Positions 24,269 through 40,919 of a DNA stretch of 42,819 nt are shown here, piece by piece. The stretch's first letter is position 1, and every line of letters starts with the position of its first letter. Under the pieces are notes generated by a model. It saw nothing but the letters and a program-made list of their open reading frames with translations. It ran no database searches and had not been told where the DNA came from. This DNA is from Desulfobacterales bacterium (GTDB lineage Bacteria > Desulfobacterota > Desulfobacteria > Desulfobacterales > JAHEIW01), in assembly GCA_020348305.1 (NCBI GenBank), contig CP070746.1, positions 1,737,899 to 1,780,717 of the forward strand, in the 5' to 3' direction. The position numbers and the translations under genes are program-made.

Positions 24269-26785
24269 CTAGACTCTTCTCCTTATATAGTAAATAATTA
24301 AAATAAACACAACGATTGCCGCCACCAAACCACCGAAGATTTCAACATTTGCCGCGATAAACATTGCTCGTCCTATGAGCTTCTGATGTTCTGGGTCGGT
24401 CTTCGGAATCATGCCAAGGTAATCACCTACCTTGGAGATCACCCGATAGACGAGCCTGCCCGAAGGTATCTCCTTGTGGCAGGACAAACACACCCCCACA
24501 CGTTCCATGTGGTCGCGCATCTCTTTGGTCAGCGGACCGTCTAAAGGCCAATGATGCCCGACGGTTTGCATCTGCTCGCCTTCACGGGAGACGACCTGGT
24601 CCAGATCCATGGGCAAATCAGGAACTGGGCTGATTTGAAACTGAGCCGTTTTCGTAACCAGCTGGCCTTTCTCATTCATTATATCGACATAAATACCTTT
24701 GGAGTATTGACGCAGGTATCGACCATCATGGGTCCCATATCCCAGAGCCTTGGCGGTGGCATGGCACGACGTACATTCGCGTGCTTGGCGGTCGATCGTA
24801 TGCGGAGCCGCCGGGGCCATATCGATTCCGCGCTGGCCCGCACTACCCCCGCCCTCTGTATTTGCGAGTGTGCGCCAGATCTTGTTGTGAACCAGTGTTT
24901 TGCCATCCGGGCTGATAACGGTAGTGATTTGCTGGCATCCGGGTATAATCGGGCCCACCCGGCCTTCACCGTTTATACCAAGCACCGGGTTCTCCCATCG
25001 CAAGTAGGAGCGGTTTTCAGAAGTTTTACCGTAGGCAACACCCGGCGCTACCGGTGGTTTGCCATCGCGAATGGATTCTGCCGTGTGGCCATCGGGAAAA
25101 TGGGTATTGCCGGCAGCCACCCAATCGGTGGCTTGTTTATCTCCAGAAAAATCAACTTTTACGTGGCAGCCATAACACTGCGGCGCCCAGGCCGAATGGC
25201 AGCCATAACATTCGATTTTCTGCAAGTGCTCCGGCGTTTGAATTTTTGCGGCAATCGCCGCATTTTTATTCTGCCATTTATTGTTTAGTTGAATCGATTT
25301 CAGAGTAGGCACTTCAAAATCCAACCCGCTGGCGGAATGCACAACGACTTTTTCGCCTTCACGCACCACATTGCCGAATGGATTGCCGCGGGCTGTCAGT
25401 AAATACCCGTCTTTGGCCGGATATTTCGTTCCAAATTTCTCCTGATTTTCCAGGAGCGTATTGGATACTGCCCGTGGTTTTTCATTGGCGAGATCGCGGC
25501 CGAATTCATCCCCCCAACCCAAGGGCAGTTCCCACGGGTATTGGGTAACTGTACCGTGGCAGTCGGAGCATTCAATTTCGACGTTCGCCAGCAATGTGCC
25601 GGTGATGTTGCCGTTGCCATGCGCCGAGGTTGTCGTGTGACAATCCTGACACAGGAGTCCGCCTTCAGGATTTCCTTCGCGGGATTTGAGCTGGTGGTGA
25701 ACATCATCTTTGATGAACTGGTAAAACTTGGTGTGCAGTTTTGGCTGCTCTTTGCCCTTAGGATTGAAGGGGCTGCCATAGGGAAACTCCATGAGCCCCT
25801 GGAAAGAGACGCCGATGCGCTTTCCCCGATTGTGGCAAGATACACAGGTTTCATGCGGAATACCGGAATAAACGTTATTGTTGACCACGACTTTGGTCTT
25901 GCGCGAAGACTGGATCGAATGGACCATGGAATGCCCGGATTGGTCGCGCTTTACCGTTTGGTCGCCACCCTCATATAGTCCCGCATTGTTATAAGGAATA
26001 TGACAAGCGGCACAGCCCATCCCGCGGAAGTCGCCACGCCTGTTGCGACCTTTGACACCGACATGACAGCGCTGGCAATCGGTACGAATATACGTGTAGA
26101 TGGCCGTTTGGGGATTTTCTTCAAGCTGCTCAACATCGGTTTTCGGAACCTGTTCGAGTTTGGATGGAAAGTTTTCCGGGTACGACTTCATGAGGGCTGT
26201 GGTGTAATCCTTGTATTCGTTTGTGCCGAAAACAGGGACGGGACCATCAGGATCATCCACATCGTAATTACCATATTTTTTTGCGTAACCTGTTGCGGCA
26301 GCCCCCCAGCCCCAGAGAGCACCTTGAATTTTTCCGGCCTCGGTCTGCATGATGGAGCGGTATTGGGCATAGGTCCATTTTTCGTGGCATTGGCCGCAAA
26401 TCTTCTGATTGACCCACACCGAAGCGGAATGAAGCACAAACGTATTGAGAGGACTTCCATCAGGCGCACCGGTGTGAGCCTTTTTCGCGTCCTTTTCTTC
26501 GGTGGGATCGCCGCCATGACAAACCACACAGCCGTTGGGATCGCCCAACTTGGATCCCGTGGCATAAATCTGTTTCGCCATCTCAGAGTTATGGGCACGG
26601 ATGGGCTCAATGCCAGAATGACATTTTCCCGGTGCCAGGCATCCCGTGTTCGGAGCCGGATAGCCTTTGGGATCCATCTCTGGTAAGGCGAATTCTGCAA
26701 ATGAGGTTGAGGAAAAAGTCATAACCAGGCAGGCGAAGAATAAAGGAAGCCCAATCCCCATAAACCGTCGAAAATGGGAGCGCAT
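24269..26785 (-). CDS. Membrane-anchored multihaem c-type cytochrome (11 CxxCH plus one CX5CH)
   Basis: This 838-residue protein has a signal peptide (RRFMGIGLPLFFACLVMTFS, cleaved near SFA-EF), a periplasmic body, and a C-terminal membrane helix (FGGLVAAIVVFILIIYYI, then RRRV). Eleven CxxCH haem sites are visible: CVVCH, CGQCH, CQRCH, CAACH, CVSCH, CQDCH, CSDCH, two CYGCH, CTSCH and CLSCH. A twelfth possible site near residue 49 is CLAPGKCH, with five residues between the cysteines. The start at 26785 follows AGGAGGAG. It probably carries electrons at the outer face of the inner membrane; donor and acceptor are unknown because no quinone oxidoreductase, Fe-S or NrfD-like gene is adjacent. 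It resembles known cytochromes in haem spacing only; I cannot assign a subfamily. Confidence 0.88.
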   Translation of the reverse strand: MRSHFRRFMGIGLPLFFACLVMTFSSTSFAEFALPEMDPKGYPAPNTGCLAPGKCHSGIEPIRAHNSEMAKQIYATGSKLGDPNGCVVCHGGDPTEEKDAKKAHTGAPDGSPLNTFVLHSASVWVNQKICGQCHEKWTYAQYRSIMQTEAGKIQGALWGWGAAATGYAKKYGNYDVDDPDGPVPVFGTNEYKDYTTALMKSYPENFPSKLEQVPKTDVEQLEENPQTAIYTYIRTDCQRCHVGVKGRNRRGDFRGMGCAACHIPYNNAGLYEGGDQTVKRDQSGHSMVHSIQSSRKTKVVVNNNVYSGIPHETCVSCHNRGKRIGVSFQGLMEFPYGSPFNPKGKEQPKLHTKFYQFIKDDVHHQLKSREGNPEGGLLCQDCHTTTSAHGNGNITGTLLANVEIECSDCHGTVTQYPWELPLGWGDEFGRDLANEKPRAVSNTLLENQEKFGTKYPAKDGYLLTARGNPFGNVVREGEKVVVHSASGLDFEVPTLKSIQLNNKWQNKNAAIAAKIQTPEHLQKIECYGCHSAWAPQCYGCHVKVDFSGDKQATDWVAAGNTHFPDGHTAESIRDGKPPVAPGVAYGKTSENRSYLRWENPVLGINGEGRVGPIIPGCQQITTVISPDGKTLVHNKIWRTLANTEGGGSAGQRGIDMAPAAPHTIDRQARECTSCHATAKALGYGTHDGRYLRQYSKGIYVDIMNEKGQLVTKTAQFQISPVPDLPMDLDQVVSREGEQMQTVGHHWPLDGPLTKEMRDHMERVGVCLSCHKEIPSGRLVYRVISKVGDYLGMIPKTDPEHQKLIGRAMFIAANVEIFGGLVAAIVVFILIIYYIRRRV

Positions 26786-27117
26786 CGTTCTCCTCCTTTT
26801 ACAAGAAAACACGGATAGATTGCTTGAAGATAAGGTTGTTAGTTTACGAAAAATATACTTTTAAGACTCGTAAATAAGGAAAATAAATCGTTTATGTTTA
26901 TATAAAGATCTCTATGGCGCTTTTGAGTCGTATAGATAGAGAAAGAAGGAAGAAATGCGGCAAGTTCTATTCCCATTAATCAGGTATACTTTTTGATGTC
27001 AAGAAAAAATTAGATTTAAATCAAGATGTGCGATAAATACGATCATAAATGGTTCGCATATCTTATATAAAGCTCAATTGGAAAGGATCTAAACCATTTA
27101 GAAAAATCTAAAAAAAC
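26786..27117. other. Intergenic region upstream of the cytochrome
   Basis: This AT-rich stretch of about 330 bases must hold the cytochrome promoter on the minus strand. I see the ribosome site next to the gene and the DegP terminator at the far side, but no clear sigma-54, sigma-28 or operator motif. Confidence 0.45.
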
Positions 27118-27189: not shown

Positions 27190-28659
27190 TTAGGAAATTG
27201 TTATCACCACAAAACCCGCATTCGGTCGCTTAACGAGGAGTTGGACAGAATCACTGGATCTATTTTTCAATTCAGACTGCAATCCTTTGACCGTATCAAC
27301 GGGCTTGCGATTGACCTCCTTAACGAGATCACCTTGCTGAATTCCGGCCTGGTCTGCTTTGCTGCCGGGTTGCACACCGATAACCAGCACACCGTTTTCA
27401 TCCTCCGAGTGGCCGAACCGACGAGCCGATTCCGGCGTTAGCTCCGTAACCTGCATGCCAAGATCACCGTTGTCTTCCAGCTCCTGTTTGGCCACCAATT
27501 CGGAATCCTGCCGTTTGGCCAATTCAGCATAAAACGTTTTTTCTTTGCCGTCTCTGAGAACCATAATAGCCGTGCGCTTGCCAACCGGAAGACCGGCAAT
27601 GGTAGCGGATAGCTCACGACCTGTATTGACGGGTTTCCCGTCCACAGCAATAATGATGTCGTTGGGTTTAATACCGGCTTTTTCGGCCGGATCCCCTCTA
27701 AACACCTGGGATACCAGAACCCCTTTTTTGTCTTTCAGATTGTAATAGTCGGCCAGCTCAGGGGTAAGGTCTTGGATTCCGACCCCCAGCCAGCCGCGGG
27801 TAACCGACCCGTCTTCTTTGAGCTGCGAAATGATTCCTTGGGCCAGATTGATGGGTATCGCAAAGCCGATTCCCTGTCCCTGGGCAACAATAGCTGTATT
27901 AATACCAACTACCTCACCGCTCATATTTAGCAGCGGGCCTCCGCTATTTCCAGGGTTAATAGAAGCATCCGTTTGAATAAAATCATCATAGGGCCCAGCT
28001 CCGATCACACGACCCTTGGCACTGACAATACCCGCGGTTACGGTTTGTTCGAGACCAAACGGACTGCCGATCGCTACCACCCAACTCCCAACGTCGAGTT
28101 TTTCCGAGTCGCCCAGTTTCAAGGGAACCAACTCCGAGGATCCCTTTATTTTTATGAGGGCTAAATCGGTATTCGGATCGCGGCCGATCAATTCGGCATC
28201 ATATTCTTTACCATTGGCCAGTTTAACTTTAATCTCGTCGGCATTCTCAATGACATGGTTGTTGGTAACAATATAACCGTCCTTATCTATGAAAAACCCG
28301 GACCCCAGACTTCGCTGCTTGAAATCGCGGGATGGTCCACGCTCAGAAAAAGGCCCGAAGAATTCGTGAAACGGATTTTTTTCGCCATGAGGATTTTTGG
28401 GGCCAAACGGATTTCCAAAGAAATGTCGAAACACCGGCCCGCCGCCTTTCATCGTTTTGACGGTTCGAATATTGACCACTCCCGGCTTAACTTCTTTGGC
28501 AAGTTCAGCAAAATTCATTGGTACCATCTGGACTTTGTAATCAACTGATGTGGTTGCTTTCGCTGCAGTTTCATTCCCCAGTCCATATCCCCAAATAAAT
28601 CCGGCTAATACCAAAACGACAATTGCTATTGTAAGTTTTTTAAAATAATTGATTTTCAT
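27190..28659 (-). CDS. degP: Periplasmic serine protease/chaperone DegP (HtrA/Do family)
   Basis: DegP-type proteins degrade or refold misfolded envelope proteins. The 489-residue protein has an N-terminal membrane/signal segment (residues 8-26), then a trypsin-like domain with the full catalytic triad: His135 in VTNNHVIENA, Asp165 in RDPNTDLALIKI and Ser239 in NPGNSGGPLLN. Two PDZ domains follow at about residues 285-370 (GWLGVGIQDLTPELAD...) and 390-485 (GDLGMQVTELTPESARRFGH...). A Pro/Gly/Phe-rich loop (residues 72-110) precedes the protease, as in the Q-linker/LA loop of the family. It is monocistronic. I cannot tell DegP from MucD or DegQ from sequence alone; the symbol is the broad Do-family name. 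Confidence 0.92.
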   Translation of the reverse strand: MKINYFKKLTIAIVVLVLAGFIWGYGLGNETAAKATTSVDYKVQMVPMNFAELAKEVKPGVVNIRTVKTMKGGGPVFRHFFGNPFGPKNPHGEKNPFHEFFGPFSERGPSRDFKQRSLGSGFFIDKDGYIVTNNHVIENADEIKVKLANGKEYDAELIGRDPNTDLALIKIKGSSELVPLKLGDSEKLDVGSWVVAIGSPFGLEQTVTAGIVSAKGRVIGAGPYDDFIQTDASINPGNSGGPLLNMSGEVVGINTAIVAQGQGIGFAIPINLAQGIISQLKEDGSVTRGWLGVGIQDLTPELADYYNLKDKKGVLVSQVFRGDPAEKAGIKPNDIIIAVDGKPVNTGRELSATIAGLPVGKRTAIMVLRDGKEKTFYAELAKRQDSELVAKQELEDNGDLGMQVTELTPESARRFGHSEDENGVLVIGVQPGSKADQAGIQQGDLVKEVNRKPVDTVKGLQSELKNRSSDSVQLLVKRPNAGFVVITIS

Positions 28660-28864: not shown

Positions 28865-29083
28865 TTAGGACTCATCATCGGGGCACACGCTCGACCATTT
28901 GGTTACTCTAACGCAGTTGCCTCGACGTTCGTCTTGCTGTCTTCGATCTGTTCCCTTTCTTCTTTCTATTCCACCGTTTTGAAAATAATCCAAATCGTAG
29001 GCAACACGTCTATCTTCGCCCGAGCGGCGATCAATAAAAGGGTCATTTTCTCTCTCATCTTTTAAAACATATTCATTTTCCAT
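28865..29083 (-). CDS. Small Arg-rich protein with RRxGxDRR motif, paralogue 1
   Basis: This 72-residue basic protein shares a clear pattern with the next gene: IDRRSGEDRR, then GGIERRKGTDRRQQDERR, and a C-terminal VRVTKWSSV. There is no signal peptide, membrane segment or Cys cluster. The ATG at 29083 is preferred because GGGGCAG lies about 9 bases upstream. Function is unknown; repeated RR pairs suggest nucleic-acid or acidic-surface binding, which is inference only. I recall similar small proteins in Desulfobacterota genomes but cannot verify this. Confidence 0.6.
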   Translation of the reverse strand: MENEYVLKDERENDPFIDRRSGEDRRVAYDLDYFQNGGIERRKGTDRRQQDERRGNCVRVTKWSSVCPDDES

Positions 29084-29220: not shown

Positions 29221-29433
29221 CTATTTTAAAAATTTCGCTATTTTTAAATCCCTAAGAAAAACACTAGACCACTTACCAACTCTTACCCAACCTCGTCTCC
29301 TTTCTTTTTGCAACCTTCTCTCTTTAAGCTTCCGACGTTCTGATCCTTTGTAAAAAAAACGAGTCGGCGTAAACATTCTGCGTCTATCTTTCCCTGTGCG
29401 CCGATCAATAGATGAACGCATTATTGCTAACAT
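29221..29433 (-). CDS. Small Arg-rich protein with RRxGxDRR motif, paralogue 2
   Basis: This 70-residue protein aligns with paralogue 1 over most of its length: IDRRTGKDRR, GSERRKLKERRLQKERR, GWVRVGKWSSVF. The order and spacing of the motifs are kept while the middle differs (FTPTRFFYKG against YDLDYFQNGG). The ribosome site is AAGGA. The 137 bases between the two genes are AT-rich with no terminator, so they may share a transcript or each have a promoter. Function is unknown. Confidence 0.6.
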   Translation of the reverse strand: MLAIMRSSIDRRTGKDRRRMFTPTRFFYKGSERRKLKERRLQKERRRGWVRVGKWSSVFLRDLKIAKFLK

Positions 29434-29667: not shown

Positions 29668-30054
29668 TTAGAATGATGCTGCGATATACTTAATTATGTT
29701 CCCAAAAGGCGTTCCGGGACCAAAGACCTCGTCAATGCCCTCCGATTTAAGCTTTGGAATATCATCGGGAGGTATAGTACCACCGATAATTACAACCTTC
29801 TCCTCAGCCCCTTTTTCTTTGAGCCGTTTAACAACTTCAGGGGCCAGCATCATATGGTTTCCGGATAGGGTGCTCAATCCGACGACATCGGCATCCTCTT
29901 GAATAGCCGTCTCCACGATATTTTCCGGCAGTTGATTACCCAGATAAATGACTTCCATGCCTGAATCGCGCAAAGCGCGCGCCACCATAATACTGCCTCT
30001 CCAGTGGGCATCCATTCCCAGACGTGCAATTATGACCCTGATGCGCTTTTTCAT
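29668..30054 (-). CDS. B12-binding (small) subunit of an acyl-CoA mutase
   Basis: This 128-residue protein is a stand-alone cobalamin domain of the methylmalonyl-CoA mutase family. The base-off B12 motif is DAHWRG (Asp15, His17, Gly20), matching DxHxxG, followed by VIYLGNQLPENIVETA, DVVGLSTLSGNHM and IIGGTIPPDDIPKLK. Asp15 and His17 match D608 and H610 of P. shermanii MCM. The position of MCM Lys604 is Arg11 here. The ribosome site is AAAGGAAG, 39 bases after the large-subunit stop, so the two form an operon with the large subunit first. Confidence 0.88.
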   Translation of the reverse strand: MKKRIRVIIARLGMDAHWRGSIMVARALRDSGMEVIYLGNQLPENIVETAIQEDADVVGLSTLSGNHMMLAPEVVKRLKEKGAEEKVVIIGGTIPPDDIPKLKSEGIDEVFGPGTPFGNIIKYIAASF

Positions 30055-30093
30055 AGTTCTTCCTTTAACATTTTATTATTAAACTCAAAAATA

Positions 30094-31785
30094 TTAGAAT
30101 AAAGGAGCGTTCCATGTACCATAGCTATCCTTAAGCCTACGTGATATTTCTCCCTCGGTTATACAGGCTTTCACTGAATCTGTTATGACCTCCATCAGGT
30201 TACCGTTTTCTTCACAACAGCGCGCAATCGCATCCAATGCATGCTGGGCTTGGGTGGAATTTCGTTTCTTTTTGATTTGTTTAAGTTTTTCTTCCTGTAT
30301 GCGGAGTGTTTCCGGCACCTCAAAAAGCGCCATCGGCAGTTTTTCTTCTTTGACCTGGTGGCAATTTAATCCCACAACCGACATTTTTCCGGATTCAACT
30401 GCCTGTTGATATTCATAGGCCGCATTTGATATTTTCTGGTGAATCCAGCCGGTTTTTACCGCCTCAACAATACCGCCCATTTCTTCAATTTTATCCAAGG
30501 TGTTGCTGATCTTTTGCTCCAGTTGGTTGGTCAGGGTCTCGATAAAATACGAACCACCTAAAGGATCGATGGTATGGGTTACCCCTGTTTCTAATTGTAA
30601 AATCTGGTTGGTCCTTAAGGCCGTAAGGGCCGACTGTTCGGTCGGCGTGCACAGCGCCTCATCATATGCGTCTATATGCACGGATTGCGCTCCACCTAAC
30701 ACTGCCGCTAACCCGTGATAAGCCGCCCTGGCAATATTGTTTAACGGCTGTTGCGCAGTTAAGGCGACTCCTGCCGTTTGAACATGGAACCTGAATCTCA
30801 AAGACCGGGGGTCTTTCGCTGCGAAACGTTCCTGCATTATCCTGTACCAAATTCTGCGAGCGGCACGGTATTTTGCAATTTCCTCAAAAAAATCGTTGTG
30901 GGCGGAAAGAAAAAAACTTAACCGGGGTGCAAAGCGGTCGATTTCAAATCCGCGTTGGATCAGTTCTTCGCAACAGGCAATTGCATTGGATATAACAAAG
31001 GCGACTTCCTGAATGGCCGTGCAGCCGGACTCACGATAGTTATAGCCGGAAAAGCTCACAGGATTCCAGCGTGGTACATATTTGGTGCAGAATTCTATGG
31101 CATCACAGCTCAATTTAAAAGATACCCGCGGGGGCAAAACTTCCGGGGCAATCGTGATGACGGTCTCCATCAAAAAATCGTTTTGGCTTGTGCCAGTCAA
31201 TTTTTGTAGAGGGATGCCTCTGAGCTGAGCATTGGTAAAATACATGGATTGCACGATAATATTGCAGATGGGCTGACATGTCACCAGAGACGTACTGATC
31301 TTTTCAATGGGTATATCATCGAATAGGATCTGCATGTCCGCCAGCGTATCTATGGCAACACCTCCGCGCCCTGCATCCGCGCTGGCAATGGGATCGGTCG
31401 AATCATACCCCCTAAGGGTAGGATAATCGAAAACCCCATTGATCCCAGTAGCGCCTTCTTTAAGTAAAAATTTATATCTTTTATTTGTCTCCTCCGGAGG
31501 CCCGAAGCCGGCCAGTTGTCGAATCGTCCAGCTGCGCCCACGATACATAGTCGGGTAAACGCCGCGAACATACGGTTCCTCCCCGGGAAACCCTATATCC
31601 TGTATGTAATTTAGATCAGAAACATCTGCCGGTGTATACAGGGATTTAATAGGTATGCCGGAAAGCGTGTGCAAGGCATGCTGCCGCTTTTTCTTGGCGA
31701 AGGATGACTTATCCTGCCATACTTTTTTCTTTTTTCTGATATCTTTTACAACTTCAGCGTCATATAGTCTGGTTGCCGCTGTCAT
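30094..31785 (-). CDS. Catalytic (large) subunit of a B12-dependent acyl-CoA mutase
   Basis: This 563-residue protein is a TIM-barrel acyl-CoA mutase subunit; the cobalamin domain is encoded separately just downstream. Family features are GVYPTMYRGRSWTIRQLAGF (Tyr81, matching MCM Y89), GINGVFDYPTLRGYDSTDP, TGTSQNDFLMETV (Gln201, matching MCM Q197), and RWNPVSFSGYNYRESGCTAI. Aligned by eye, Thr211 stands at the position of MCM R207 (substrate carboxylate) and Asn249 at MCM H244. The region TLADMQILFDDIP...SLVTCQP also departs from the usual SMTMNGAVLP. The reaction is probably a carbon-skeleton rearrangement of a CoA thioester, but not confidently methylmalonyl-CoA/succinyl-CoA. The ribosome site is GGAGG. 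Confidence 0.85.
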   Translation of the reverse strand: MTAATRLYDAEVVKDIRKKKKVWQDKSSFAKKKRQHALHTLSGIPIKSLYTPADVSDLNYIQDIGFPGEEPYVRGVYPTMYRGRSWTIRQLAGFGPPEETNKRYKFLLKEGATGINGVFDYPTLRGYDSTDPIASADAGRGGVAIDTLADMQILFDDIPIEKISTSLVTCQPICNIIVQSMYFTNAQLRGIPLQKLTGTSQNDFLMETVITIAPEVLPPRVSFKLSCDAIEFCTKYVPRWNPVSFSGYNYRESGCTAIQEVAFVISNAIACCEELIQRGFEIDRFAPRLSFFLSAHNDFFEEIAKYRAARRIWYRIMQERFAAKDPRSLRFRFHVQTAGVALTAQQPLNNIARAAYHGLAAVLGGAQSVHIDAYDEALCTPTEQSALTALRTNQILQLETGVTHTIDPLGGSYFIETLTNQLEQKISNTLDKIEEMGGIVEAVKTGWIHQKISNAAYEYQQAVESGKMSVVGLNCHQVKEEKLPMALFEVPETLRIQEEKLKQIKKKRNSTQAQHALDAIARCCEENGNLMEVITDSVKACITEGEISRRLKDSYGTWNAPLF

Positions 31786-31838: not shown

Positions 31839-33263
31839 TTAAAAACCAATTCCAGGAAGGGTTACTGTGAAGGTGCTTCCCTGGTTAGGTGTGCTTACAA
31901 CGGTAATATCGCCACCATGGGCCCGGGCGACAGTTTGGGAAAAACTGAGTCCCAGTCCGGTGCCACTCTGGGATCGACTGGGATCACAGCGATAAAAACG
32001 TTCAAAGATGTGGGGAAGATCGTCTTGAGAAATGCCCATGCCTGTATCTTGTATCGCGATTTCCACTTTTTGATGGCCCTCGGCAAGAACCGACACCTCA
32101 ATCCGGCTATCAGGCGGTGTATAGTTGATGGCATTATCAAGCAAATTGGCAATCATCCTTTGAATTAAGCGAATATCGCCGTAAAGTCTGAAAGCTTCTT
32201 TTGCATGGCAAACCATCGTTACTCCCTTATCTTCGGCTGCAGACTGAAACAGGTCACAGGCATCACGGACAACTGCAGCGATATCAATTTCTTTTCTATC
32301 CAATTGACCAACACCCGCCTCGGCTTTGGATATAAAAAGCATGGTGTTGATCATATCTAGTAGCCGGTCGCACTCTTCAATCGTACTGGCCGCCATGCTT
32401 TCATATTCCTTCAGGGATGCAGCCGAAGTCAAGGTGACTTCGGATATCCCCCGCATACGGGTAATGGGGCCTTTTAGATCATGGGCGATGTTGTCGCTCA
32501 TATCTTTGATTTCGGTTACCAAAGCCTGTATTCGATCCAACATCTGATTAAAGGTGATTGCCAGTTGATCGATTTCATCCTCGCGTTTATTGACCGGCAC
32601 CCGCTCTTGAAGACTACCGTTGGATATGCGTCTTGCCGTTTGAGTTACCGTTTCGACACCGGCCAGCGCCCGTCTGGCCATAAACCAGCCGACGACAGCT
32701 GCCAGCAAGAAAAGAATCGCCATCGTCGTGATAAATATTTTACGAAAGACTTCGATGACACGGGTATAGTTTTCCATGGATTGGCCCAGCTGCAAGATAA
32801 CGCTTGGACTGAAAAGGATATAGAGAACCCGAATCTGGTGTCGACGATCGGGCGTGCGGATGATATCAAAAACCGGTCGGTTGTCTTCCAGCAATTGATT
32901 GATGGCGTTTCGTTCAATGCCGATATCTCGCCAATAGGACATGTTGGAGGAAGAAAAAACAATTCCTGTAGGATATAGAAACCGAAAAAAAATCTTCTTT
33001 TCACCGGCTGCCTGAGCCTCAAGAACCGCCTGCCGCTGAGCGGCTTCGATACCCCGTGCTTTTCGGATGGACGTTAGCGCTCGTGCTTCTTCCAACAGAT
33101 CCTGGTCGGTACGATCCCGAATCACAGCGGTAATCAATAAGTAGAAAAAGAGGAAGGCCACACATGAAGACACCAGAAAGACACCTGCGTACCAGAGAGT
33201 CAACCGAAAGGCCAGGGTATGACGGATACTAAGCAGTCTCTTCTTTAGCTTGCTTGAGGACAT
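31839..33263 (-). CDS. Sensor histidine kinase, heavy-metal-sensor/CusS-like layout
   Basis: This 474-residue membrane kinase has two membrane helices (about residues 22-48 and 173-195) bracketing a periplasmic sensor of about 125 residues, then a HAMP domain ([37 protein letters not shown]). The kinase core follows with the phosphorylated His261 ([18 protein letters not shown]), N box ([18 protein letters not shown]) and G boxes ([28 protein letters not shown]). It starts inside the end of the response regulator gene (35-base overlap), so regulator and kinase are translationally coupled. The cue is unknown; the layout resembles CusS-type metal sensors but the sensor domain is not conserved enough to say. 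Confidence 0.88.
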
Positions 33264-33918
33264 ATCCCACTCCGCGTACCGTGTGAATCAACTTGGTTGG
33301 AAATTCTTTATCAATTTTTTCCCGGAGTTTATAAATTCGCGATTCCACCACATTGGTCTGGGGATCAAAATGATAATCCCACACATGCTCCATAATCATG
33401 GTTTTGGAAACAACTCTGCCGGCATTACGCACTAAATACTCCAATAAGGAAAACTCCAGCGGTTGAAGATCGATCTTCTTTTCGGCCCTAACAACTTGAC
33501 GGGTAATCAAATTCATGGAAACATCGCCCACCACCAATCGGGTCGGCTCGGTTTGGTCGGTGCTTCGCCGAATCAGTGCCTGAATTCGGGCGAGCAATTC
33601 GGAAAAGGCAAATGGTTTGGTCAAATAATCATCTCCACCGGTCTGCAGCCCTTTCACGCGATCGTCAACAGTGTCTTTGGCGCTTAAAATAATGACCGGT
33701 GTATTTATCTTTTCCTGCCGCATTTTTTCAATAAGGGTCAAGCCATCCAATTTGGGAAGCATAATATCAACAATGGCGGCATCATAAGGTTCGGTCACCG
33801 CCAGATGAAGTCCATCTTCGCCGTCAAGGGCATGATCGACCGCAAATCCCCCGGCCTTCAGACCTTTTATAATAAATGAGGCGATCTTCTGATCATCTTC
33901 AACGAGCAGTATTCTCAT
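33229..33918 (-). CDS. OmpR-family response regulator
   Basis: This 229-residue transcription factor pairs with the kinase. The receiver domain (residues 1-120) has the acidic pocket VEDDQ (Asp8, Asp9), phosphoacceptor Asp51 in [13 protein letters not shown], and Lys81 in [15 protein letters not shown]. The winged-helix domain (about 130-225) shows [40 protein letters not shown] and [14 protein letters not shown], then [10 protein letters not shown], the usual OmpR/PhoB end. It is first in the two-gene operon. Target promoters are not visible here. Confidence 0.92.
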
Positions 33919-37715: not shown

Positions 37716-40700
37716 CTAGAGGCCCGGTATACAAGAGTTGAGATACCCTTCAGCCAAAGCTCCGGTAAACATCACACACTGAGAAGATCGTCCATCCACT
37801 TTCAACACAAACGGTTTCTCAAGCGTTACATGGGCAACGAACGTGGTCTCATCGGTTACCGGCAGAGAAGTAAGCCAGTTCCAATTTAGAAAATCTTTGT
37901 TGGTATTGGAGATGGTCACATAATTTATACCCAGCGATGTGATATTGTGGAAAAAATGGGAGCCCTGCGAGGGATCGGCCTTTAAATGGGGAGAAGATGT
38001 TTCGATCATTGCACCCACACCGCAGATTTCAGCCCAACTCACCGGTATCCCCAGCCAGCGGTCTGCCGAACCCCAGCGACCCGGCCCGATAAGCAAGTAT
38101 CTTCGTCCTTCTTTTACCAACCCTGCATTTAATTTTCCGATCTCCTGAGCCACCTCCGGGGTTTTGCTGGGATCAAACACATCCGGCTTTATATATAGAA
38201 TATCGGCGAGATCCGTTTTTTCCGCATTACCCAGCGCATGGGAAGAATAGCAAAACGCCGCTTTAATCTCTTCTTCGATAATTTCCACCTGTCCGAGTTC
38301 CGCCCTGGCCGTCATGGGTCTTAGCTGCAGAAAAGCAAATTGCGGTTCGCAATCCTTTTCCTGGCATAAGTTTACCGAAAACTCGAGTTCCACCGGACAA
38401 CCCATTCCTTCCTGCCCCATTGCAAGAACTTCTGAAAGAATCTCGGGCAGAGGAAACAAATCGTATTTCAGGATCTGAGAAAAGGTCAGCACACTGTATC
38501 CGGGAATATGCGTGCTATCTCTGATACGGCCTTCTTCCGGCAGGAAGGTGCTGGCCAGCAGTTTCATGGGGGGATCCGCAACCACGTCATCGACTTCACG
38601 TTTGTAAAGATTTGCATCCTCCTGGATACCGAGATCAGGATAGGGGCCTCCCATTTTTACCGAATAAAAATAGCGCTGTGAATTTTCGAGGATATCATTT
38701 ACCGTGGATCGCTGCGGCAACAGTTGCGGATATTTTGGTGAAAACCGAAGGGCCTTTTCGCCTTCCATGACGGTTTTGCCGAGACCAAGGGCGATGGTTG
38801 CAATGCCTTCTTCGGGTTTCATTTTCGCGAAGGGGTAATAATTATGGGACTGGGCCACCCCGGATATCGCCGGATAGAAATAATCTCCGTATCTCTCGCC
38901 CACCAATTGCTGGATAATCACCGCCATTTTTTCTTCTTCCGTGCGGTGGCCGATCCGTTGGGAGAACGCTTTGGGACCTTGAAAATAGGTGGATGCGTAC
39001 ACCAGTTTGATGGCATTGATCAACTGTTCAAGCCTTTTCTCCAAACCGGGATGATCGTTTGGCAGCATAAAGGTGCGATAGAGACCGGCATAGGCCCGAA
39101 ATTGAGCGTCTTCCAGAAGGCTGGACGATCGGATGGCCAGCGGATAATGGATCTTGTCCAGATAAGCCTTTAGGATATCGGCAATCCATTTTGGAAACGA
39201 AGCCTTGCGAAATGCTTCGGCAATCTCTTCATCCGGAGCATCCGACTTTGCGAGTCCCTTCAGATTGTTTTCTTCCACAAAGGCATCAAAGCCATCGGTC
39301 GTAATAACCAATGTTTGCGGTATGAGAAGGTTTATTCCTTCGAATTTCTTATGTATTTCCGGCAGCCGCTGCAGCAGATTGGATACAAACGCCAATCCTC
39401 TCGCCTTTCCGCCCAAAGAACCTTTTCCGATTTTAAAAAATTCGGTATCCGAGTCAAAATCGCCGGTTTCAAAATCAACCACCACTCCCTTTTGCCGCCG
39501 CCGCCGCCGGGCTTGAATCAGAGAGATAAGATACTGCCGGTGGCTTTCCACGCTGGAAAAGTCATCGTCGCGGATGGGCCGCACCATGGACGCCAGCATG
39601 ATTTCCGTGCGCGCAAAAAACCAACGTGAGAAATCATTGCGGCTGCAATGGTTGATAAACGCATCTTCCGGAATTTCTTGCAGATTCTTTTCAAGAGCGC
39701 GCATATTCGATGCTCTAGCGATTTCGCGTCCATCCGGCTTGCGAAAGACAAAATCACCGAACCCAAGATAATCCATAAAAAATGTGTGCACTTCAGCAAG
39801 AAGCGTGGGCGAGTTTTTGTCTACAAAGAAGGCAGGAATTGTGGCGGCTTTTTCAGCGTTTGAAGGCTCCGAGCTGGTGAGTAAAAGCGGTATATCAAAT
39901 CGCTCCTGCTTAATCATTGATAGAAATGCCACACCAGCCTCATGATCGAGTTGGCCGTTTTGCGGGAAGCGGACATCTGAAATAACACCCAGAACATATG
40001 GTTCGAATTTCTTGTAAAGATGGACGGCCTCCTCGTAATCTCTGGCCACCAATATCTTCGGGCGCGCGCGCATGGTCAGTAACCGGTGCTCCTCGTTCAG
40101 TCCCTCCTCGAGCACAGCCTGGGTCTGACTCACCACTTCCCGGTACAAAACGGGCAGCAAGGTTGAGTTGTAAAGGGGTGAATCCTCCACAAATAGGATA
40201 ACTCGGATACCGGCATACTCCGTATCGTGCTCGACATTCAATCGGTCCTCTGCACTTTTCACCAGTGCAACCAGAATATCCGTATTGCCGGACCAGACAA
40301 ATGTTCGATCGATACCGGCTGGATGGGTAAAGTTTAGACTGCATTCCTGAGCATCGGGAAGTATGGAACTATGGCTTAACAGAATCACCGGCAAATCGGG
40401 CACCTTCTTTTTAATTTCCTGCCCCAGAACAGAGGCATCCATATCGGCGAGATGCAGCATGGTAATAACTAAATCAAATTTTTTTTCATCCAAAGCTGCA
40501 AGCGCCTCTTCTGCTGTGGATACCCAGGTAAATCGCGGCGGATTGCTGAGATTCAATCCCCGGTATTCATTAATAATCCGCTCAGAAAGCCGGCAATCTT
40601 CTTCCATAATCCAGGCATCATAAGGGGTGGAGACCAAAAGAATATCTCTGACCTTTTTGGCCATGAGTTCATGGAAAACTTTAAAACGAGGATCAAAATC

Positions 40701-40730
40701 CTCAGCAAAACTGTCAATAGGCAATGTCAT
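37716..40730 (-). CDS. PEP-synthase/PPDK N-domain protein fused to receiver-like domains
   Basis: This 1004-residue protein has an unusual order. Residues about 25-150 are receiver-like but lack the phosphoacceptor (DLVITMLHLADMD, Met91 where Asp belongs). Residues about 175-320 are a second receiver with a full set: Asp183 in FVEDSP, Asp252 in GVISDVRFP and Lys305 in FFVDKNS. From about 430 to 1000 it shows the ATP-grasp PPDK-N pattern: GKGSLGGKARGLAFVSNL, IPQTLVITTDGFDAFV, YPLAIRSSSLLEDAQFRAYA, ALGLGKTVMEGEKALRFSP and AFLQLRPMT. The swivelling phospho-His domain and PEP-binding barrel of true PEP synthase are absent. The ATG at 40730 follows AAGGA. Function is unknown; phosphorylation-controlled nucleotide or phosphate transfer is inference. 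Confidence 0.78.
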   Translation of the reverse strand: MTLPIDSFAEDFDPRFKVFHELMAKKVRDILLVSTPYDAWIMEEDCRLSERIINEYRGLNLSNPPRFTWVSTAEEALAALDEKKFDLVITMLHLADMDASVLGQEIKKKVPDLPVILLSHSSILPDAQECSLNFTHPAGIDRTFVWSGNTDILVALVKSAEDRLNVEHDTEYAGIRVILFVEDSPLYNSTLLPVLYREVVSQTQAVLEEGLNEEHRLLTMRARPKILVARDYEEAVHLYKKFEPYVLGVISDVRFPQNGQLDHEAGVAFLSMIKQERFDIPLLLTSSEPSNAEKAATIPAFFVDKNSPTLLAEVHTFFMDYLGFGDFVFRKPDGREIARASNMRALEKNLQEIPEDAFINHCSRNDFSRWFFARTEIMLASMVRPIRDDDFSSVESHRQYLISLIQARRRRRQKGVVVDFETGDFDSDTEFFKIGKGSLGGKARGLAFVSNLLQRLPEIHKKFEGINLLIPQTLVITTDGFDAFVEENNLKGLAKSDAPDEEIAEAFRKASFPKWIADILKAYLDKIHYPLAIRSSSLLEDAQFRAYAGLYRTFMLPNDHPGLEKRLEQLINAIKLVYASTYFQGPKAFSQRIGHRTEEEKMAVIIQQLVGERYGDYFYPAISGVAQSHNYYPFAKMKPEEGIATIALGLGKTVMEGEKALRFSPKYPQLLPQRSTVNDILENSQRYFYSVKMGGPYPDLGIQEDANLYKREVDDVVADPPMKLLASTFLPEEGRIRDSTHIPGYSVLTFSQILKYDLFPLPEILSEVLAMGQEGMGCPVELEFSVNLCQEKDCEPQFAFLQLRPMTARAELGQVEIIEEEIKAAFCYSSHALGNAEKTDLADILYIKPDVFDPSKTPEVAQEIGKLNAGLVKEGRRYLLIGPGRWGSADRWLGIPVSWAEICGVGAMIETSSPHLKADPSQGSHFFHNITSLGINYVTISNTNKDFLNWNWLTSLPVTDETTFVAHVTLEKPFVLKVDGRSSQCVMFTGALAEGYLNSCIPGL

Positions 40731-40919
40731 GTAAATCTGTCCTTGGGAAAATACACTATCAAATCGGTTGGAACTAAATAAAATCACATCTTCGTGAAAA
40801 TCTCAATAATATTGCGAAAATTGTCATATCATTTAGTATTGATTACAGATAGTTTAAAATCCCTTTACAACAAACTTTGATGAATGTTTTGAATGAATAA
40901 AGTTTAGTAATATTATGGC

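Follow-up and report, generated by a model that had tools for sequence, protein, structure and literature searches.

A B12-dependent acyl-CoA mutase with asparagine at the place of His244 in a Desulfobacterales genome, from a sister clade of the RcmAB-type mutases

The DNA analysed here, referred to as the window, is a 42,819-nucleotide stretch of contig CP070746.1 (assembly GCA_020348305.1) of a Desulfobacterales bacterium, and contains adjacent genes for the two subunits of a B12-dependent acyl-CoA mutase. An open reading frame (ORF) of 563 amino acids (aa) matched the Pfam family MM_CoA_mutase at 601 bits and a 128-aa ORF, 39 bases away, matched B12-binding at 81 bits; both frames are open and both mutase subunits in the window are real. 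The genome (G000; L and G numbers denote loci and genomes) is a single contig of 6.97 Mb with eight PF01642 matches, among them one remnant, a canonical methylmalonyl-CoA mutase (MCM; L001, with Tyr89, Arg207 and His244) and a fused IcmF (L007). Two more mutases of this genome (L005:1363-3072 and L006:1474-3081) have active-site regions that align poorly to MCM and sit on long branches.

Residues are given in the literature numbering of P. shermanii MCM, which is the PDB chain position plus one; chain 5req, a Y89F mutant according to its title, has Phe at 89. The window enzyme shares the fold of MCM and retains Gln197 (its Gln201), Tyr243, Arg283, His328 and Gln330, and in a 29-row alignment the invariant columns include window Gln201, Tyr248, Asn249, Arg288, His334 and Gln336. 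Tyr89, Arg207, His244 and Lys604 of MCM are all replaced in the window. Asn249 stands for His244, the place of Arg207 is taken by Thr211 without gaps or by Ile212 if one residue is inserted before it, and the small subunit has Arg11 for Lys604 while its D-x-H-x-x-G motif is intact as DAHWRG. An original prediction, made from the letters of the window, had named the retained Gln197 and the three replacements at 207, 244 and 604 correctly, and no alignment restored Arg or His; it erred in holding that Tyr89 is kept, the aligned residue being Leu91 (WTIRQ-L-AGF), where HcmA has Ile. Val118 corresponds to Ala116 of MCM and Asp117 of HcmA. The MCM combination of Tyr89, Arg207 and His244 is thus replaced by Leu91, Thr211 or Ile212, and Asn249, and the MCM equivalog model PRK09426 gave 521 bits against a cut-off of 876. 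Neither were the IcmF residues Phe89, Gln207 and His244 found (Leu, Thr or Ile, and Asn; 249.7 against 1500 bits for the IcmF equivalog), nor those of the HcmA type, Ile90, Asp117 and His at the 244 place (Leu91, Val118, Asn249).

Judging by the sequences compared, the loss of Arg207 and His244 is a normal trait of the family of the window enzyme and not the oddity of a single gene or chance, the observed substitutions being due to membership in an Asn244 family. Asn244 and a residue other than Arg at 207 were found in all 120 listed nearest homologues (the best 120 of 8000 scored). Of 390 rows gathered, 146 came from loci and 120 from each of two homologue lists, and three reference chains and the window completed the set; since rows were picked by similarity to family members and not at random, the following counts describe constancy within the family and not its frequency. 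The motif QNDF occurred in 281 of the 390 rows, every one with Asn244 and none with Arg at 207, although one QNDF row (L024) has Arg close to that position. The 109 rows without QNDF had 101 His, 3 Asp, 2 Gln, 1 Phe, 1 Asn and 1 gap at position 244, the single Asn belonging to L005, which is poorly aligned there. Asn was present in 42/42 clade rows of a 71-row tree and His in 23 of the remaining 29. Two Actinomycetota mutases (L038:9819-11501 and L060:9923-11605) have Gln at the His244 place, and relatives of MeaB and SDR genes are found in their clusters.

Phylogenetic analysis with IQ-TREE used 53 rows, the active-site columns around 84-92, 112-120, 160-170, 194-212 and 234-252 being blanked. 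The Asn244 clade was supported at 100/100, as was an Rcm clade containing Kyrpidia tusciae, Robertmurraya massiliosenegalensis and genome G318, whereas the window clade received 97/84, or 94/91 together with two outliers (L021 and L024). Rcm clade and window clade are sisters, so that the window enzyme lies outside the clade of the characterised RcmA proteins, and HcmA and MCM fall outside the Asn244 clade altogether. The original view that the enzyme is no MCM was upheld, the MCM clade being set apart from it at 100/100 and the genome having its canonical MCM besides. From the 53-row tree 18 of the 71 rows were omitted, the longest branches among them; a quick tree of all 71 rows and all columns agrees (99, 100, 87, 83).

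Characterised relatives came from a second homologue search that started from Bacillus aerolatus L020, whose operon has the order GntR, MeaB, large subunit, small subunit and AMP-binding ligase (the cluster mate of this ligase in L171 is PaaK-like). Listed by this search were K. tusciae P0152 and R. massiliosenegalensis P0138, which have Asn244, Ser207, Ile89 and Val116 and are each 51% identical to the window enzyme. K. tusciae is described as isomerising 2-hydroxyisobutyryl-CoA by RcmAB, a distant relative of HcmAB, both mutase forms are attributed to R. massiliosenegalensis, rcmAB is placed next to hcl and meaH, usually together with a GntR gene, and the Desulfococcus biacutus mutase is called RcmAB-like (PMC7176365). 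The mutases of Aquincola, K. tusciae and R. massiliosenegalensis have been purified, the last with a kcat of 0.29 per s on 2-hydroxyisobutyryl-CoA, and first-shell active-site changes inactivated the enzyme (PMC11599936). The R. massiliosenegalensis mutase was changed at Val92, Glu102, Glu137 and Pro163 (Table 1, PMC11599936); P0138 carries exactly these residues at those numbers, and the assayed mutase is therefore of the Asn244 type. The window enzyme shares Asn244, the absence of Arg207, Leu or Ile at 89 and Val at the Asp117 place with P0152 and P0138, and the DxHWRG motif of its small subunit with L020. The pattern had seemed unlike that of known mutases, yet it is common to the RcmA-type family, and the original statement that neither the isobutyryl- nor the hydroxyisobutyryl-CoA mutase pattern is matched thus stands for IcmF and Aquincola HcmA, not for the RcmA type. 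HcmAB of Aquincola tertiaricarbonis (4r3u) resembles the window pair in fold, in its two subunits and in the replacement of Tyr89, but has Asp117, Gln207 and His244 and is 42% identical. Val reportedly replaces Asp117 in RcmA. No printed mention of Asn at 244 in RcmA was found, the likeliest sources (Kurteva-Yaneva 2015, Weichler 2015) being out of reach, and no claim of novelty is made.

A comparison of 140 window-type with 135 Rcm-type rows, in which a fixed difference required at least 90% in each, revealed differences (window/Rcm) that include 84 W/F, 119 Y/L, 168 C/H, 206 T/G, 245 Y/L, 250 C/T and 288 L/W; position 207 is mostly V/I in the window type and S in the Rcm type, and 241 is A/S/T and N respectively. 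From their nearness to known pocket residues the differing positions would line or flank the substrate site. Tyr119, Cys168, Thr206, Tyr245, Leu288 and Arg604 are features of the window clade that set it apart from the RcmAB type. Among loci in which the small subunit was found (it was not in L016), DxHWRG occurred in 21/21 of the window type and in 17/19 others of the family, the exceptions L021 and L022 having DAHYRG, whereas the Lys604 place was Arg in 20/21 window-type loci, L168 having Lys, and Lys in 18/19 of the others, L024 having Ile.

G318 has a family mutase (L134) followed by MeaB and SDR genes, with a thiamine diphosphate (TDP) enzyme ~10 kb off. The predicted masses of its proteins are 64.7, 14.5, 28.0 and 77.6 kDa (each protein offered two to five candidate start codons, from which one was picked); the same four values are reported from Desulfosarcina cetonica, where they belong to the two mutase subunits, the reductase and the TDP enzyme induced by acetone (Table 1, PMC7888143), although the isoelectric points are off by 0.12 to 0.47; the masses are a strong match between G318 and D. 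cetonica, not proof of identity. D. cetonica shows inducible 2-hydroxyisobutyryl-CoA mutase activity in acetone-grown extract, its mutase is also induced on pentanones, and butanone- and isopropanol-grown cells express the same protein set (PMC7888143); acetone-induced mutase subunits were also found in D. biacutus (PMC4103992). If G318 is D. cetonica, the acetone-induced mutase belongs to the Asn244 family like that of the window (L134 has Asn244 and no Arg207), and its SDR or MeaB neighbours are shared with some window-type loci. It differs from the window in that L134 falls in the Rcm clade, has Leu at the Asp117 place (as have about half of the Rcm-type rows) and is accompanied by the TDP enzyme. 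Window-type mutases elsewhere occur with MeaB, an HMG-CoA-synthase/OB fusion, a thiolase and MmgE/PrpD (L012, L126), next to the fusion, a thiolase and an SDR (L019), or near an M24-type peptidase (L013, L125, L161, L162, L163, L168; family tested in L013 and L162, the rest assigned by similarity). An acetone-induced cluster of Desulfotomaculum arcticum contains an Xaa-Pro aminopeptidase, a DUF35 OB-fold protein and acetyl-CoA acetyltransferases (PMC8084838), which, as a parallel, speaks for a ketone or 2-hydroxyacyl-CoA role of the window type. The window's genome has two relatives of the fusion (50% and 47% identical), and no M24 peptidase was found in it at 1e-60.

From this placement we infer that the window pair probably interconverts a branched 2-hydroxyacyl-CoA and a linear 3-hydroxyacyl-CoA, a reading to which a probability of roughly 0.6 is given. 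The best form of it is an Rcm-like mutase for a 2-hydroxyacyl-CoA other than, or a range wider than, 2-hydroxyisobutyryl-CoA; that the substrate is not simply acetone-derived 2-hydroxyisobutyryl-CoA is suggested by the fixed differences from RcmA and by the lack of the acetone-pathway TDP enzyme. Going by established superfamily chemistry, adenosylcobalamin would be bound through His17 in the small subunit and cleaved homolytically, the 5'-deoxyadenosyl radical would abstract a hydrogen from the branch methyl group, and the CO-SCoA group would then migrate to the former methyl carbon. The amide of Asn244 would replace the contact of His244 to the thioester carbonyl, and the Arg207/Tyr89 clamp would be unneeded for a substrate without a carboxylate. 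Several observations weigh against this reading. As no member of the window clade was found to have been tested, the substrate class is carried over from its sister clade, to which identity is 51%. The clades differ in or near the pocket itself (L119Y, H168C, G206T, S207V/I, N241A/S/T, L245Y, W288L), and residues 73-85, beside the pocket, have low AlphaFold confidence. The ketone-activating TDP enzyme was present in 7/28 genomes with the family, namely 6/13 Rcm-only genomes, 0/14 window-type-only genomes (that of the window among them) and the sole genome with both (types were set by identity and in part from no more than three candidates per genome, and a weaker second member may be missed), and the 685-aa TDP enzyme had no match at 1e-60 in the window's genome. 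The scanned genes next to the window pair also included no CoA ligase, MeaB or dehydrogenase.

A rival reading, of which the original prediction had raised the alkyl-branched form as a possibility, gives the mutase an acyl-CoA substrate that is branched or alkyl-branched but carries no hydroxyl group, such as isobutyryl-, pivalyl- or 2-methylacyl-CoA. An apolar group would fit Leu89 and a hydrophobic residue at 207, the change of Trp288 to Leu may widen the pocket, and acyl-CoA dehydrogenase genes lie directly upstream in L009 and L016; the IcmF of the window's genome, however, has a different pattern with Phe89, Gln207 and His244, and those relatives of the window enzyme with known substrates act on 2-hydroxyacyl-CoAs, which makes this alternative unlikely. 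Its special form, a substrate from anaerobic hydrocarbon pathways, found no support, the nearest characterised relatives using 2-hydroxyisobutyryl-CoA (PMC11599936, PMC7176365). The two listed window ORFs of at least 700 aa encode a cytochrome and a protein with a PPDK domain; neither is a glycyl-radical enzyme, and the search for one went no further than the window. As for the preferred hydroxyacyl-CoA reading, it can be taken further at somewhat less than even odds: the window clade may represent a specificity so far unrecognised, the pocket of its Asn244 enzymes being remodelled (Tyr119, Thr206, Tyr245, Leu288) for a hydroxyacyl-CoA that is handled by no known mutase; in some bacteria the enzyme is one of three tandem B12 mutases with one MeaB. 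The Asn244 branch has at least one assayed member and MCM, ICM and HcmA have a catalytic His244, which makes the role of the residue directly testable. Within the branch the window clade is a conserved sister clade, mostly from deltaproteobacterial genomes here, whose interest lies in its substrate and in the chemistry of Asn for His244, and annotation of the branch as 'methylmalonyl-CoA mutase' is likely to mislead.

The neighbours of the window pair (Table 1) differ from those of the RcmAB type, the ligase operon (GntR, MeaH, CoA ligase) being missing and a sensor kinase and an HtrA-type protease standing instead. Upstream, 53 bases separate the pair from the end of the kinase gene; downstream, the HtrA-type gene lies ~1 kb away. 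Three genomes from two genera (that of the window, G001 and G005) have the pair between kinase and HtrA, an arrangement that would fit a decayed enzyme, or one that took on an envelope-stress function together with HtrA and the two-component system. A survey of 14 relatives, covering 1.5 kb beside the best HtrA match, found the kinase beside HtrA without a mutase in 5, at 0.2 to 0.6 kb, the mutase between them in 2 (G001, G005), and both kinase and mutase absent within 1.5 kb in 7. The place therefore looks like an insertion, the simplest reading being that the mutase pair entered an older kinase-HtrA unit, and with the open frames and invariant columns this makes decay or an envelope role very improbable. 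A function deduced from the window neighbours was rejected on the same grounds.

Table 1. Positions of the mutase genes, selected codons, flanking genes and AbfD-family genes (window positions unless a locus is named)
Feature	Position	Strand	Basis
Large (substrate-binding) subunit of B12 acyl-CoA mutase, 563 aa, with Leu91, Val118, Tyr121, Gln201, Thr211/Ile212 and Asn249	30094..31785	-	ORF + Pfam match
Cobalamin-binding subunit, 128 aa, His17 in DAHWRG, Arg11 at Lys604 place	29668..30054	-	ORF + Pfam match
Asn249 codon (His244 of MCM)	31039..31041	-	computed from ORF
Thr211 codon (Arg207 of MCM, ungapped alignment)	31153..31155	-	computed from ORF
Leu91 codon (Tyr89 of MCM)	31513..31515	-	computed from ORF
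Val118 codon (Asp117 of HcmA; Val in K. tusciae P0152)	31432..31434	-	computed from ORF
Sensor histidine kinase, heavy-metal type; flanks apparent insertion place of mutase pair	31839..33263	-	
Response regulator, overlapping kinase gene	33229..33918	-	
HtrA/DegP-type serine protease; adjoins kinase in 5 mutase-free relatives	27190..28659	-	
AbfD-family gene near mutase	L169:2809-4284		
AbfD-family gene near mutase	L171:5573-7024		
AbfD-family gene near mutase	L009:1497-3209		

Genomic context elsewhere suggests a further role, in which the mutase would make a 4-hydroxyacyl-CoA, e.g. 4-hydroxybutyryl-CoA from 3-hydroxyisobutyryl-CoA, for an AbfD-family dehydratase and so lead to crotonyl-CoA. 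In L169 and L171, both of the Rcm type, ligase and mutase are followed by an AbfD-family gene (4-hydroxybutyryl-CoA dehydratase), and one is also found near the mutase of L009, which is of the window type; the cluster ligands Cys99, Cys103, His292 and Cys299 are present. A close AbfD relative was found in 8/16 order-level genomes with the family against 22/373 without it (Fisher 4e-6, uncorrected for relatedness, with a C-terminally shortened query), and the window's genome has one that is 79% identical. AbfD is clustered with the mutase, however, in only 3 of the 42 loci of the context table (in which L014, L143, L166 and L173 have no mutase call, probably through a competing frame or split gene, and L010 and L147 seem to be a single contig), the close relative lies elsewhere with varied neighbours in the 12 genomes examined, with no constant context over 13 loci compared, and the copies of L169 and L171 are without the equivalents of Glu455 and Tyr296, all of which leaves such a role quite improbable.

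Other features of the window include two small, similar, arginine-rich ORFs of 72 and 70 aa (28865-29083 and 29221-29433, minus strand) between the B12-subunit and HtrA genes, with DRR/ERR motifs and KWSSV in common, a 1023-aa protein with response-regulator and PPDK N-terminal domains (37716-40787, minus strand) and an 847-aa cytochrome with MtrC/MtrF-like similarity (24269-26812, minus strand). No Rfam match to a cobalamin riboswitch reached the gathering score in the window. Window-type mutases occur in tandem with other mutases in L012, L125 and L163 (L012:4643-12098, L163:2640-9956, L125:1634-5787), where B12 mutases with separate small subunits share one MeaB. The members are an Asp-at-244 type (L012, L163), a His244/Leu89/Cys116 type and the window type, the short contig of L125 having only the last two. 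In the window's genome, L119:7652-11679 holds the His244/Leu89/Cys116 type with MeaB and a C-terminal remnant of the Asp-at-244 type. The genomes G461 and G593, of only ~3 Mb, have 29 and 30 PF01642 matches, with 20 in G050, 14 in G010 and 13 in G760.
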